A stretch of 64,000 nucleotides of DNA from NCBI GenBank assembly GCA_022592445.1, contig JABYQR010000156.1:37264-101263 (forward strand), given 5' to 3'. Shown here piece after piece: positions 8,529-63,058 of the stretch; position 1 is the first letter of the stretch, and the number at the start of each line of letters is the position of its first letter. Both the position numbers and the translations under genes were made by a program. The DNA comes from Cytidiella melzeri (taxonomy: Eukaryota > Basidiomycota > Agaricomycetes > Polyporales > Irpicaceae). Below the pieces are notes generated by a model, which did not search any database, was not told where the DNA came from, and saw only the letters and a program-made list of their open reading frames with translations.

Positions 8529-9976
8529 TCCTCAAGTCTCTTCTTGAGGTCGGCGTTCTCCGCCCTTAACTTCTCCAGTTCTCCTAGCACGGCTTTGAGT
8601 GTTACTTCCGACACTCCCGACGAGTTCGACGCTTCTTCCTTCTCAGGCTTCTTTTCTTCGGCCCGAGAAGAAGATGCCTCCCCATTGGTAGCAGCTACAC
8701 GTGGTCCACGAGGAGGTGGACGAGGAACTGCAGGCTTGGTGCACGTGCGTGCGATGTGACTGGGATCCGTTGTAAGTTCCTGGCAGTTATAACACCGCCG
8801 ACCTTGTTGCATCTTGGAGGCGTCAACCTCCATAGGGACCGGACCGTTGGAAGCGCGAGGAACCGGAGTAAACCGGGGCTGGGACTGAGTAGGTCTCGAC
8901 GTGGTCGACGAGGGAACAGACGGAATTTTCTTCTCCGTTGTTTCTCTGATGCGGGCATACGCAGCCGCCATTTTCAGAGACCTATCAATCCACCCCTGAT
9001 AGTTCGTTGGCGGAGCTTCGGCAGTTGCCAATCTACCATAGATGTACTCTGGAAGGCCCTTGATGAAGCGGATCTCCTTGTCCTTGTCGCTTAATCCGGA
9101 GATGCGACCCACGTAGGATTGGAAGTCTGTGACATATGTTCCTACGTCACGCGCGTTCTTCTCCTTCTTCTCAGCTCCACAGAGCTTCTCCAACTCACGG
9201 ATAGCAGTATCTTCGGGCGTTGCATCGCCGAAGTACTTCTTGAGCTCAGTTTTAAACTTGGCCCAGGTATCGAGGTTGGCCGGCAAGTTACCGTTGTGGT
9301 CAGCCATATGATCCGTGACCGGTATTGCCCATTGGGCGGCCTTTTCTGACAACCGGTAGATTGCTGTCAGGACCTTGGTTCTTTCATCGGCAATACTGGC
9401 GGTCACCCAGTAAGCCTCGCATTGTGACAAGAACCGTTCTAAGTCACGGCCATGTTCGCCCTTGTATCTATCGGGCTTGGTGTCGTTATTGTTGACCGTG
9501 ACTTGCGGTCTTGGCATTGCTTGTGTAACTGCAGCTACAATGGCTGCAATCAAGGCAGGATCGACTGCGGGTGTTGTCATCGTGACAGGTGCGGAATTTA
9601 TGGGGACGACGGTGGGCGCTTCAGGAGTTACCGGTGGGATTTCCGGTATGGTTTCGGGAATGATGGGATCAGGAATAATGAGGGTATCGTCTGGTGGAGC
9701 CGGTGGGTTTTCCGGTACAACTAAACTGGTATTGACCTCGACTTCTTCAGGAACTCCAACAATCAACGGTATTTGACTGTTATCGCAAGCTACGTATCCA
9801 CGGTATCGTTGTCCTTCTCTGAAATGACGGGATACTACAAACTTTTGATTTCGATTTGGACACGGCTGTTGTTCGCAGATTTCAATATATGCGTGGTCCT
9901 CTTCGTTATCGTAACAGTCCTGAAGATCGTCGGGATCAAAGACGTGGAAATGATTATCGCACTCAATGATTGCTAT
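8519..9976 (-). CDS. gag: Element B gag, no ATG, in frame with ORF0
   Basis: An open frame of 485 codons. The N-terminal part has a C-Y-D...P-C-P-N-R motif shared with element D gag, then a proline- and threonine-rich linker, a capsid region (about 9480-9000) with F-L-S-Q-C-E-A-Y-W, and a zinc-knuckle-like motif C-x2-C-x8-H-x4-C (about 8800-8745), longer than the usual C-x2-C-x4-H-x4-C. The end is a short coiled coil. The frame is continuous back to the tandem stops TAG TAA (9982-9977) that end ORF0, and it holds no ATG near its beginning. Gag may therefore be made by readthrough from ORF0, by another splice, or by non-ATG initiation. Confidence 0.8.
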   Translation of the reverse strand: MAIIECDNHFHVFDPDDLQDCYDNEEDHAYIEICEQQPCPNRNQKFVVSRHFREGQRYRGYVACDNSQIPLIVGVPEEVEVNTSLVVPENPPAPPDDTLIIPDPIIPETIPEIPPVTPEAPTVVPINSAPVTMTTPAVDPALIAAIVAAVTQAMPRPQVTVNNNDTKPDRYKGEHGRDLERFLSQCEAYWVTASIADERTKVLTAIYRLSEKAAQWAIPVTDHMADHNGNLPANLDTWAKFKTELKKYFGDATPEDTAIRELEKLCGAEKKEKNARDVGTYVTDFQSYVGRISGLSDKDKEIRFIKGLPEYIYGRLATAEAPPTNYQGWIDRSLKMAAAYARIRETTEKKIPSVPSSTTSRPTQSQPRFTPVPRASNGPVPMEVDASKMQQGRRCYNCQELTTDPSHIARTCTKPAVPRPPPRGPRVAATNGEASSSRAEEKKPEKEEASNSSGVSEVTLKAVLGELEKLRAENADLKKRLEEGF

Positions 9977-9979
9977 TTA

Positions 9980-10710
9980 CTACAAAGGAAGTTTCTCAAA
10001 GTATCCTCCGTCCGCTACAAAAGCAACTCGACTCGTAACCTCCGTCAACCTCTTGCGCAATTGCGTGAAGTTGATCTGTCCCACTGATTGCAAGCCCCAG
10101 TTCAGTGCTTTGAGCTGGGCAGGCGTGCGCGTGGAGAGTACTTCCTCCGTGTGTTCTGTGAGGTACAGAAGTTTGTCGTTGAGTAACAGGACTGATCTAA
10201 CCTGTGAGTCGTTGCGGTCGCGAGTGAGTTCGATCAGGATCTTGAGGCGTCTGGTAGTGGCCTCGATCTTTGGCTTGAGAATGCCGACTTGGTCCTTGAT
10301 GGAAAACTTGTGGAAATCGAGCGTCACAGGTTTTTGTGCGTCTGGGCGAGGTGGCGGGGGTGCCTGGGAGACGCGGTCCTTGAGAGACGGTTTCTCAATT
10401 CGTTCCGCGAGGGTTTGCGCGCGTTCTGTGCGTGCACGTTCCTTGATGGACTCGTTGTCACGAGCAAACTTTTCGTGGTCGAAAGCAGGAAGCCTGGTGC
10501 CCAGGGGATGGTAGTGAGGGCGGCGTGAGACGTAGGATACGATGGCTTCAAGATCCTTTTCTGTGTAGAGACGAGGACGTCCTTGCTCGCGTAGTTCTCG
10601 ACGAGCCTCAAAGAAGGACTCGGGTATGCGGCGACGAATGCGTACGTCCTTGGGCACTATAACCACGAAATGAGATGTAGGATCAAAGGTTCGGGCCAAT
10701 ACAACGTACT
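9980..10710 (-). CDS. Element B ORF0, conserved protein upstream of gag
   Basis: Predicted as two exons. The leader exon ends with A at 10710 and the second exon begins with TG at 10656, so splicing of 10657-10709 makes the ATG. The protein begins M-P-K-D and is about 225 residues. It shares with element D ORF0 an S-Y-V-x-R-R motif preceded by Y-T-E-K, a K-P-S-L block, a D-F-x-K block, and the C-terminal W-G-L-x-x-x-G-x-x-x-F-T-x-L-R motif. Element C ORF0 shares the last two blocks more weakly. No zinc finger, enzyme motif or membrane segment is visible; it is charged and mostly helical in appearance. Function unknown. It ends at TAG TAA, in frame with gag. Confidence 0.68.
10657..10709 (-). 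other. Intron splitting the ORF0 start codon in element B (53 bp)
   Basis: The donor is GTACGT (from 10709), the acceptor TATAG (to 10657), and a TTGAT branch-like motif lies inside. Before splicing the codon ahead of CCC AAG reads GTG; after splicing it reads ATG. The same arrangement occurs in element D at 60647-60715. Confidence 0.6.
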
Positions 10711-10805: not shown

Positions 10806-11304
10806 TGTCAGGAACACAACCCAACTCTATGAAGAGCGAGGGAGTGACGACAAGGGGGGGAGGAACGACGAGCGAACTCGCGTGGACGATGACGACAGGA
10901 GTATAAGTGATGAGGAGGAGTGGAGACACGACGACGAGGGATCAGCTGACAATGAGCTAAAGACCAGGATATATTAGTACAGTGGTGAGACTAGTACAAG
11001 GTGAACGTCACCTAAAGACCAGGAGGTAGAATCTGAGGTCTTTAGGGAGCTACAGGGTGGGTTTATATACATCTCAGACAAGGACCCCTGGTACCGGGTC
11101 TGTACTCCTAACACTGCCGTGGGAACGTATGGTGTGCTATGGTGCGATGTTCTACAATGTTCCACAATGTTCCAGCACCTTCTATGATCATGTGACCAGT
11201 CTGTCACATGCACTTGATCACATGCAGTAGCCATGTACCATCGATAAGATAAGATAAAGAAATTAAAAGGAAAAGAAAGGGAAAAAGTGTGCATGTTCGT
11301 GACA
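10806..11304 (-). repeat. Element B 5' LTR (499 bp)
   Basis: Read on the minus strand it begins TGTCACGA and ends CCTGACA. It closely matches the LTR at 57525-58037. It has a TATA box at 11062-11069 and a predicted start at 11034. Its outer edge abuts the copia integrase region at 11305, so B inserted into copia. Confidence 0.9.
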
Positions 11305-59820: not shown

Positions 59821-60542
59821 TGACATGGATAGTCCAACAGACCGGATTTTTCCAACATTATCACAAGTTTACAGCCTTAGGCGCCTATCTAGAGCGCTTA
59901 TTTTCCGGCTAGGAGTGTTACCAGACCTAACCCTAACCCGGGTCACGTGACATCCTGCCTTATTTATCACTAGTCCAGACCCAAACCCTAGACTCAGTCT
60001 GGAGCGGTTCCAGATCAACCTAGGCTATTGTTCTATTGTTCTTCTTCCATTGATAGGGATTCCCCAGGGATTCCCCCAGGTTTTATTGTTCTATTGTTCT
60101 ATTGTTATAACTCTATTGTTCTCTGTACTCAGGTCCTTGACAGTTACTCAGGTCCTTGACAGTTACTCAGGTCCTTGACAGTTACCCTGGTCCCTTATTG
60201 TTCTATTGTTACTCCAGCCCCACAGTTACTCCAGTCCCTAGTGTGGGAACTTGTGCACAGACCACCCAGCCGCAGTATATATAGTAGCCCTTACCCTCCC
60301 TAGCTCTGCATCTTGACCTCTCTGTCATTTGCACTGCTAGGTGAGTTACTGCATGTAACTTAGTAATATACCTTATTAACTCTGTCATTTGCACTGCTAG
60401 TATCCGGCCTTTGTGCCTGCTTGCCTGCTTATCATCGACTTTGACCTCGCTGTCGTCGTTGGAGATCCCTTTCCACTTCCCCCTCACATCTACTTCACCC
60501 TTGTTTAGGGTTTATCAGTCTATCAGCAGTCGCTCCGCGACA
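59821..60542 (+). repeat. Element D 5' LTR (722 bp)
   Basis: TGACATGG to GCGACA. It matches the solo LTR at 46087-46908. It contains three tandem copies of CAGGTCCTTGACAGTTACT (about 60130-60190), runs of TTCTATTG, a TATA box at 60276-60283 and a predicted start at 60310. Confidence 0.88.
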
Positions 60543-60544
60543 TT

Positions 60545-60554
60545 AGGTCAAGAT
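60545..60554 (+). promoter_or_regulatory. Element D self-primer binding site
   Basis: AGGTCAAGAT begins 2 nt after the LTR and is the exact complement of ATCTTGACCT (60310-60319), which begins 34 nt from the first T of the TATA box. Confidence 0.7.
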
Positions 60555-60645
60555 ACCACACAGCTACCGGCACGACTGCCCTTAGCTTGGATCAAGTCCT
60601 CCTGTCCCCCCAGTTTTAAAAAGTTTATTCCCCCCTACGTTTGAG

Positions 60646-61473
60646 AGTAAGCCATTGCCGTCCGTCTTGACGTGCTTGATCACTGACTCGTTCACTTTCC
60701 GTGGTTGATTCTTAGTGCCGAAAGAATCCCACTCCCGTTTCACCGCTCGCCCAGATCCTTTGCATAAGGATCTGAATCAAGCGCGTCGAGAAGTCCAGAT
60801 CCACCGTGCCCTACCTCAGGTCGTGTTTGATCAACTTGACGCAGAGCACGCACGTGGCAAGAGTCACAAATACACGGAGAAGGAGCTTAAGGCTATTGCC
60901 TCCTACGTCGGTCGCCGTAAACCCAAGGGTTCCGCCCTTACCCACAGATTCCCTACAGCAGAGGAGTTTGAAAAACTCCGTGCTGAGTCCAAAGAGTTTG
61001 CCGCCCGTACCGCACGCGAACGAGCCCAAGCTTTAGCAAGTCTCCCAAGGAAGCCTTCATTAGCAGAACGATTCCCAGCCAGGCCCGCTACCAACCCTAG
61101 CGCAGCCCTCATAGCAGCGAAGCCAACTCTCATTGACTTCCGCAAACACACTGTTGAAAACCTTCAAGGTATCTTCACCCCAAAGCTCACCGCTACGCTC
61201 CAACGCTTGTCGATCCTCCCCACCATCGACAAATACCAACAGCTTCACAAAGACACAAAGCGTGATTTTGAGCAGGAGAAACAGAAGTTGGGAAAACTTC
61301 TGGAAGAGTTACCAACCCGAGCCCCTGTCATCACTCATCGTGAGTGGCAGCTGTTGGATTGGGGTTTAAAAGCAATAGGAGGAGTCAGCTTCACGGGTCT
61401 AAGGAGGAACTACGAACAGGTGTTCAAAGCGTTAGACAAAGTTTGGGCGGACGAGTACTTCATCTCGTTCTGA
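60646..61473 (+). CDS. Element D ORF0, conserved protein upstream of gag
   Basis: Splicing of 60647-60715 joins A (60646) to TG (60716), giving ATG CCG AAA. The second exon encodes about 252 residues, ending with TGA at 61471-61473. Blocks shared with element B: Y-T-E-K-E-L-K-A-I, S-Y-V-G-R-R, K-P-S-L-A-E-R, I-D-F-R-K, P-K-L-T-A-T-L-Q-R-L and the C-terminal W-G-L-K-A-I-G-G-V-S-F-T-G-L-R. Basic and helical in appearance, with no known domain. The unspliced frame has no ATG before this region: a TGA lies three codons upstream of the GTG at 60715. Confidence 0.7.
60647..60715 (+). other. Intron splitting the ORF0 start codon in element D (69 bp)
   Basis: Donor GTAAGC (60647), branch motif CTGAC inside, acceptor TTCTTAG (to 60715). 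The exon junction A|TG creates the start codon, as in element B. Confidence 0.65.
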
Positions 61474-63058
61474 GTAGAATACAGTGTGGCTTCCCAAAGT
61501 CCCAATAGTAGCATTTGGTCCAGAGATCATCTTCCTTGCGAAAACTATCCGCACGCCTTCAACAACCAGACCGTCAGAGACGAGTGCTACGACTCAGACG
61601 AAGGACATCAAATTTGTGAAGTACAACCGTGTCCCAACCGCTACAACAGAGTAGAATATCCTGGTCGTTACGCAAATCAGTATCGACCCATTCATCACTG
61701 GCAGGAAGATCGCATTCTTGAGTCACTCCCACCCCTGCCTGAACCTGAAGAAGACTTTGATCGAACCTTCACGCAGGAACAATACCAGATGGATTCTACC
61801 AATGTCTCCCAGCATGCTTCGAGGGTAGCAACCCCGGCCCCCACACAAGAACCGTCTCCACCTCCCACAGCAGAACAGCTTCTGCATGCACTACTCCTTG
61901 GTCAGCAACAGTTGACACAAGCTATCACAGCACTGGTTCAGAACCAGCAACAACCGGTCAATAACAGGTCACGGGAAAGGGTTGTAGAAAAACCCGCCAG
62001 CTTCAAGGGCAATGCTAGTAGTGACGCGCGTCGCTTTTTAGCTGCCTTTTCAATGTACGCACAGTTTAATGAGAAGCTGTCTCCGTACAATACCCAAGGT
62101 GGCCAGACCCGGTTAGATCATCTCTGGATTTTGTCGGCCCTGTCCTTTATGACCGAAGATGCGGCTGTTTGGGCTACTCCCCACATGGATTTGATTGCCA
62201 GCCATCAAATGGCATTCAATGGTGACTGGGACGACTTCAGGACGGCATTCAAGGCACAATTTGAACCAGTTGACGAAATGGTGGATGCTAAGGCCAAGCT
62301 CAGGGAGCTGTGGCAAGGCAAAAAGACGGTTCCCAAGTACACGGCCAGATTCCGGGAAATCATGGACAGGACAGGTTACTCGACACAGGATCTACGGGAC
62401 CGTTATTACAAACATCTGAGCACCACAATTAAGGATGAACTGGTCCACACTGCACGCCCCATGTCACCCTCGTCGATCTCATCAATATGGCCACTGACAT
62501 TGACAATCGTCTTTGGGTAGAGCTCAAGAAAAAGCTCGTGAACAAGGTCGAACAGTTGCCAACGTGTTCAAACCTACCCCGGTCTTCACCTCGTCCCCGG
62601 CTCCTTTCGTCCAACCATCTCGTGACTCCAATGCTATGGAGATTGACGCAACAAAAGTTGGACCAAATGGAAAGACACGCGCCACTTCATGAAGGCCATG
62701 AATGGTAGATGTTACGGATGTGGATCCAAGGAACATCAGAAGAAGGACGGCAAACATGATCGAGAACTGTGCGGACATTGTGGTGGCAACCACCAGACGC
62801 AAGTTTGCCAAAGCCGGTTCCTTGGGTACCCACCGAGGCAACAAAAGGTGGCTGCTAATACCTTGTTTGATCCGTCAACTCCGGTTCCTTCGTCGTCCTC
62901 GTCTGCGAGGCCCTTACCTACCCGCCCGCCGCAACTGTTGCCAGCTCTTCGTCTTCAACTCGTTTGATTACGATGCCATCATGAACAGATGTCATCACTC
63001 ACGGACCAAGTCAAGCAGCTCGGAAATCAAAGGGATTTTTAGAACGGACTCCAGGTGA
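61474..63058 (+). pseudogene. gag: Element D gag, no ATG, in frame with ORF0, frameshifted later
   Basis: The frame follows directly after the ORF0 TGA (GTA GAA TAC...). Its N terminus has E-C-Y-D-S-D-E and P-C-P-N-R, as in element B. A Pro/Gln-rich region is followed by the capsid core (about 61990-62450). Frameshifts near 62465 and 62570 break it. Further on, a zinc region has C-Y-G-C and C-G-H-C-G-G-N-H-x4-C (about 62705-62815). No ATG lies near the beginning. Confidence 0.78.

Follow-up and report, generated by a model that had tools for sequence, protein, structure and literature searches.

A leader gene whose start codon is interrupted by an intron in three families of LTR retrotransposons of Cytidiella melzeri

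Introduction

An LTR element depends on a single RNA that must act both as messenger and as genome. A stretch of 64,000 nucleotides from the genome of Cytidiella melzeri (contig JABYQR010000156.1; hereafter the window, whose coordinates are used throughout) raises the question of whether the start codon of a gene in such an element can be made by splicing as a working part of the element, or whether an intron found inside that codon is an accident. A start codon made by splicing would mark the messenger and genome fates in the sequence itself. To our knowledge, no LTR retrotransposon with a split start codon has been described, and none was recognisable by title or opening lines of the abstract among the papers listed in searches of open-licence full texts. 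Judged from its sequence, element D of the window belongs to a family of self-primed Ty3/gypsy-type LTR retrotransposons with a leader gene, ORF1, whose start codon is interrupted by a small spliceosomal intron.

Layout of elements D, B and E

Element D lies on the forward strand and is cut by the contig end, with its 3′ LTR beyond it; Retrotrans_gag and a protease are present before the contig ends. Element B, on the reverse strand, encodes Gag, aspartic protease, RVT_1, RT_RNaseH and Integrase_H2C2 before it is truncated, which is the domain order of Ty3/gypsy elements. A third family, E, was revealed by a search of the genome with homologue P0001 of the ORF1 protein. All genome searches ran on the 49.7 Mb assembly. 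The features of D and B are as follows, L061 denoting the genomic D copy that lacks the start-codon intron.

59821..60542, forward strand: 5′ LTR of element D; homology to L061 stops exactly at 59821 (TGACATGG), and a CA end precedes the TT-PBS
60310..60319, forward strand: inferred mRNA 5′ end and self-primer ATCTTGACCT of D, the reverse complement of the PBS, about 34 nt past the start of TATATA, by eye
60320..60340, forward strand: repeat1 of D, the exon segment from the primer end to the R donor, identical to repeat2 in 25 of 28 R-intron-bearing copies whose 5′ end is covered
60341..60400, forward strand: putative R intron of D (GTGAGT...CTGCTAG), which ends in repeat2 (60380-60400)
60545..60554, forward strand: PBS AGGTCAAGAT of D, able to pair with the inferred mRNA 5′ end of the element itself
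60618..60630, forward strand: leader motif A(n)GTTTA(T/G)TC in D, common to families D, B and E
60647..60715, forward strand: start-codon intron of D, 69 nt, at A/TG; precisely missing in L061
60646..61473, forward strand: ORF1 of D, formed by A 60646 and 60716-61473; 252 amino acids including the start Met, with TGA at 61471-61473
61474..61788, forward strand: AUG-free extension of D from the ORF1 stop to the Gag ATG, in frame with both and constrained at the protein level
61789..62520, forward strand: Gag frame of D from its first ATG (Retrotrans_gag, PF03732)
10657..10709, reverse strand: start-codon intron of B, 53 nt, at A/TG (A at 10710, TG at 10656-10655)
9980..10710, reverse strand: ORF1 of B, formed by A 10710 and 10656-9980; 225 amino acids including the start Met, ending in TAG followed by a second in-frame stop
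10957..11011, reverse strand: putative R intron of B (GTGACG...CTTTAG), whose 3′ end copies the preceding 12 nt
11024..11034, reverse strand: inferred mRNA 5′ end and self-primer AGATTCTACCT of B, with the PBS at 10803-10793
9578..9580, reverse strand: Gag ATG of B, with no ATG in any frame in the 1454 nt that separate it from the inferred transcription start

Element B ends abruptly in the integrase region at about 5743 (reverse strand), with other sequence beyond. On its other side, at about 14000-11300 (reverse strand), it is adjoined by what by eye looks like another, Ty1/copia-like element with zinc-knuckle and integrase-like protein stretches.

A start codon split by an intron in three families

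The intron of D is built as an earlier note on this DNA had described it. It runs from the donor GTAAGC, beginning at 60647, to the acceptor TTCTTAG, ending at 60715, and the joining of A 60646 to TG 60716-60717 gives an ATG that is followed by CCG AAA and opens a frame of 251 further codons and a stop. The branch motif CTGAC that the note had named is present, starting 33 nt from the 3′ end of the intron; among the 33 intron-bearing D copies examined it reads CTGAC in 20 and CTAAC in 13, a variation confined to the degenerate R of YTRAY. Element B splits its start codon at the same A/TG place, also as claimed, with an intron of 53 nt against 69 nt in D. Family E shares the split, with introns of 72-75 nt. 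The ORF1 proteins of B and E are 32-44% identical to that of D.

We examined 87 loci (34 D, 31 B and 22 E), composed of the 30 best ORF1 matches of each of D and B, a sample of E, four lower-scoring copies (L064-L067) and the intronless D copy. Intact GT...AG sites at A/TG are found in 84 of them (33/34 D, 30/31 B, 21/22 E), the D and B sets being skewed to intact copies since the best ORF1 matches were chosen. The three exceptions are L061 (D) and L074 (E), which are intronless, and L067 (B), which is decayed at both sites. YTRAY stands at a fixed position in 33/33 D and 30/30 B introns and in 0/21 E introns. The leader motif begins 23-30 nt upstream of the donor in 32/33 D, 30/30 B and 21/21 E introns, and a purine (A or G) occupies position −3 of the spliced AUG in all 84.

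The families are larger than these samples. With the best 150 of 873 candidates scored for D and of 734 for B, the ORF1 searches of the genome gave at least 150 and at least 151 matches, respectively. Donor junctions followed by the intron, counted genome-wide from the donor side with up to 3 mismatches, number 152 for D, 293 for E and 138 for B. No fourth family was apparent in the best 150 of 721-744 candidates scored for the queries P0001 and P0009, the matches being D- and E-like by size. We regard the split start codon and its splicing as close to certain.

Genomic copies that lack the start-codon intron

Retrotransposons copy RNA back into DNA, and spliced RNA can in this way give rise to copies without the intron. 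Eight genomic copies lack the start-codon intron exactly, one in D and seven in E. The spliced junction of D (25 bases, up to 3 mismatches) has one genomic match, with 0 mismatches, and its reversed control has none; L061 aligns with D on both flanks at 86-87%, with the break exactly at 60646/60716. The spliced junction of E (up to 3 mismatches) has seven matches, four with 0, two with 1 and one with 2 mismatches, and its reversed control again has none. The genome search with the spliced junction of B yielded no intronless copy. Such precise copies argue that the predicted junction is really used in D and in E.

The intronless copies differ among themselves. The seven of E carry several different leaders. 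For L089, L093, L094 and L095 the nearest neighbour is an intron-bearing E copy (21 sampled), L091 and L096 are nearest to each other, and L092 is nearest to L095, which is also intronless; L061 shares 96% identity with a D copy that has the intron. Leader types and nearest sampled neighbours together point to several separate losses, and the losses look derived, by our reading at least four of them. The finding that the earlier note had said would count against it, related elements with a plain ATG and no intron, thus exists in eight copies, most of which, by their nearest neighbours, look derived and not ancestral. In L088 (C27), an intronless E copy, ORF1 is interrupted by what by eye appears to be an inverted D LTR, one family inside another.

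ORF1 and its relatives

ORF1 has a pN/pS of 0.096 across 30 D copies and 0.074 across 30 B copies, lower in both families than the first ~240 codons of Gag (0.179 in D, 0.112 in B). By this measure, ORF1 is a real gene under strong purifying selection. After the start codon there is no Met in the 251 (D), 224 (B) and 241 (E) codons of the reference copies, and nine homologues from outside, three of them nearly the same, contain a single Met in 2063 internal residues.

The protein has few recognisable relatives. No significant Pfam family matched ORF1, no NCBIfam family matched in 12 members, and no significant sequence relative was found in the PDB. A single-sequence search of 5.8 billion proteins returned one ORF1 relative; a profile search of the same 5.8 billion proteins, with 7997 candidates scored, returned the nine homologues, one of them from Irpex lacteus. 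In seven of the nine an MP(K/A) start stands at the same place, which alone is no proof of an ATG because bacterial gene callers would take the acceptor-spanning GTG as the start. Gene finders may overlook ORFs with a split start or give them a wrong GTG start. An AlphaFold model of ORF1 (mean pLDDT 72.9, pTM 0.43) is all-helical with a confident C-terminal helical part, which suggests an all-helical protein.

The argument of the earlier note, that start-by-splicing is functional and not an accident, is strengthened by the third family, by the purifying selection on ORF1, by the precise intronless copies and by the absence of any other AUG from ORF1 in the reference copies.

The near absence of AUG ahead of Gag

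Between the inferred start of transcription and the Gag ATG there is one ATG in 1479 nt of D, none in 1454 nt of B and none in 1277 nt of the E copy L062, which is without the R intron, the E figure resting on few copies. The sole ATG of D, at 60353, reads ATG TAA and lies within the R intron. An ATG at this position occurs in 28 of 30 aligned D copies; in RNA that retained the R intron it would come before every other start.

Base composition predicts 15-19 ATGs in these stretches. Approximate dinucleotide shuffles (200 per family) gave means of 8.8, 8.2 and 5.2 and minima of 3, 2 and 1 for D, B and E, and never reached the observed number; in each family, ATG is the rarest trinucleotide of the stretch. 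Counted at the positions present in the reference copy, 22 of 30 aligned D copies have no ATG apart from two R-intron sites and 23 of 30 B copies have none at all, and every position of an ATG in the remaining eight D and seven B copies is single-copy. From the Gag ATG onward, 700 nt contain 17 (D), 12 (B) and 3 (E) ATGs. The absence of out-of-frame ATGs within ORF1 alone is not significant, as 12-41% of synonymous shuffles also have none. What is unusual is the absence of methionine together with the AUG-free remainder. These nearly AUG-free 1.3-1.5 kb make a switch at the start codon testable by a simple reporter.

In D, 16 of the 17 matched copies carry C at −3 of the Gag ATG. Ten E loci were read beyond ORF1; in nine of them no ATG intervenes between the ORF1 stop and the Gag ATG, and L098 has one earlier ATG.

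The extension between ORF1 and Gag

The segment between the ORF1 stop and the Gag ATG (9976-9581 on the reverse strand in B) is also constrained, with a pN/pS of 0.166 in D and, more weakly, 0.382 in B. A motif around QPCPNR is common to D, B and E, and the extension of the reference copies contains no AUG. It is absent or broken in several E subfamilies and shortened in eight of the ten E loci read past ORF1; in L106 and L107 the Gag ATG lies only ~42 nt past the ORF1 stop. Conservation as protein in the absence of an AUG implies that some Gag may start in another way, and translation of the extension may begin at a non-AUG codon or follow that of ORF1.

Readthrough of the ORF1 stop into Gag was considered and rejected as a general rule. 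The stop of D is TGA in 12, TAG in 5 and TAA in 13 of 30 copies, 29 of 30 B copies end ORF1 with tandem in-frame stops, and the extension of E lies in differing frames. In D alone, readthrough may still occur. By eye, there were no common splice sites near the ORF1 stop for a further intron joining ORF1 to Gag, and no second A/TG acceptor in frame upstream of Gag. Just past the ORF1 stop of D, at 61478-61503, the sequence AATACAGTGTGGCTTC(C/T)CAAAGTCCC is nearly invariant at the nucleotide level across 30 copies.

A probable switch between ORF1 and Gag

As the best explanation of this arrangement, we propose that splicing probably serves as a switch between ORF1 and Gag. RNA that retains the start intron would have no AUG before Gag, provided that the R intron is spliced or free of ATG. 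Scanning ribosomes would pass the AUG-free leader and ORF1 on this unspliced RNA and initiate at Gag, and the same RNA would also serve as the genome. Spliced RNA would gain an AUG whose −3 position is A or G, and would yield ORF1 instead. Intronless copies would be dead ends because their Gag would be blocked; the intron would be kept in three families because an intronless element would always start at ORF1. Several points speak against the switch. Gag could also arise on spliced RNA, through ribosomes that reinitiate once ORF1 has been translated or that scan past the ORF1 AUG, and in D a retained R intron would put ATG TAA ahead of everything. We also count against it the C at −3 of the Gag ATG of D, the constraint on the extension, the lack of an intronless B copy and the E introns without YTRAY.

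The start intron might instead be an ordinary 5′ intron that fell by chance in the start codon and is spliced constitutively for export or expression, Gag being made by reinitiation or leaky scanning and the intron surviving since some RNA escapes splicing before packaging. The intron is short and otherwise a normal GT-AG intron, with a branch motif in D and B, and the ~42 nt from ORF1 stop to Gag ATG in L106 and L107 suit reinitiation. This account nevertheless seems unlikely to us, as it leaves unexplained both the lack of internal AUG in ORF1 and the retention of the intron in three families even though spliced RNA is evidently copied back, and the context of the spliced AUG, with a purine at −3 in every one of the 84 introns examined, is not obviously leaky. 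It is highly improbable that the eight intronless copies arose by chance deletion and that degenerate motifs merely happen to form a split ATG: any one deletion could be accidentally precise, but there are eight junctions in two families with 0-2 mismatches to the predicted splice product, and 84 of the 87 loci examined have both splice sites intact.

It is also conceivable, if rather unlikely, that the intron is retained because of what its sequence does, for example as part of a packaging or dimerisation signal across leader and intron, so that spliced RNA is left unpackaged and the split codon, as a consequence, keeps translation and genome apart. The start intron does vary less than the fourfold sites of ORF1 (0.029 against 0.198 in D, 0.057 against 0.210 in B), the leader is low too, and the leader motif is common to the three families. 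U3, however, is also low (0.053 in D, 0.017 in B), so that low divergence is not specific to the intron; moreover, spliced RNA has evidently been reverse-transcribed several times, and the introns of D, B and E are unlike in length and sequence. A role for the intron sequence and the proposed switch are compatible and do not exclude each other.

Comparison with known systems

An AUG that exists only after splicing, as in D, B and E, has a counterpart in EBNA-LP of Epstein-Barr virus. The other transcripts of that set serve a downstream protein, and the splicing-made AUG was reportedly described around 1990. The herpesvirus uses alternative acceptors, whereas here the choice would be intron retention and the unspliced RNA of the retrotransposon is presumably the genome. 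The AUG of EBNA-LP arises only through one splicing choice, according to passages of a published account (PMC12451641). Splicing also separates RNA pools in BARE of barley, where, in the text excerpted from its description, spliced RNA encodes Gag only and uncapped unspliced RNA is packaged (PMC3735527); the BARE splice lies just beyond gag and its start codon is not made by splicing. Integrated copies of spliced retrotransposon RNA are known as SpIREs, genomic copies of spliced L1 RNA that excerpts of their description call generally dead ends (PMC5860796). By the same excerpts, splicing of L1 inhibits retrotransposition, whereas here three families keep the intron. Of the plant Ty3/gypsy elements Ogre and Diaspora, Ogre resembles D, B and E in having an ORF before gag, in the place of ORF1, a comparison by position only; sections of a 2005 paper describe the ORF ahead of gag in Ogre as of unknown function and state that no intron upstream of gag had been reported for any LTR element (PMC1142308).

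Apparent self-priming and a putative R intron

In each of D, B and E the PBS is the reverse complement of 10-11 nt in the element's own LTR, each family having its own matching pair, and this self-primer segment lies by eye ~34-35 nt past the start of the TATA box. In the passages on Tf1 that bear on priming (PMC7175516), the PBS is bound by the first 11 bases of the RNA, which RNase H then cleaves between positions 11 and 12. By analogy with Tf1, the start of the self-primer would be the RNA 5′ end. In D, B and E the RNA would then pair through its first 10-11 nt with its own PBS, as in Tf1/sushi elements, and the three families look self-primed in a Tf1-like manner. The passages on Tf1 and Tj1 differ in mentioning neither a split-start leader gene nor an R intron, though a cryptic intron is mentioned in Tf2.

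The R region has the same anatomy in all three families. Repeat1 begins exactly at the primer end and is followed by GT... and an intron-like segment of 55-68 nt that ends in repeat2 with AG (60320-60400 in D; 11023-10957, reverse strand, in B; loci L074 and L089-L096 in E). Among 69 loci readable in R, which represent 67 distinct copies since L074/L089 and L090/L096 are the same copies, 59 distinct copies have the segment and eight are precisely without it (two D, four B, two E). Recombination between repeat1 and repeat2 yields the same product, and exact loss was for this reason not taken to prove splicing.

Repeat1 and repeat2 have the same sequence in 25 of 28 copies of D, in 25 of 26 of B and in 4 of 5 distinct copies of E. 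Two repeat variants, three positions apart, occur in D: four copies carry one of them in both repeats and 21 the other, while in the remaining three the repeats differ at one or two positions and none mixes both full variants. Variation in B is 0.000 and 0.006 in the repeats against 0.170 in the intron body; the contrast is weaker in D, with 0.045 and 0.054 against 0.095.

If the RNA is cut right behind the primer, as in Tf1, a strong-stop cDNA templated by a spliced 5′ end would carry the complement of the repeat at its terminus. Such a cDNA could anneal to repeat2 of the unspliced 3′ R and so restore the R intron in each round. The R intron is kept in six of the eight copies that lack the start intron (L061, L089, L091, L093, L094 and L096); L092 is without it and L095 is cut off. 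This would be in keeping with restoration, and an unspliced R would predict the same. We tentatively suggest, as a possibility somewhat short of even, a programme of two introns, in which the start intron sets the ORF1 messenger apart from the Gag messenger and genome and the R intron is re-installed by reverse transcription. If this is true, the repeat of the R intron is a way for an intron to persist through a self-primed reverse-transcription cycle.
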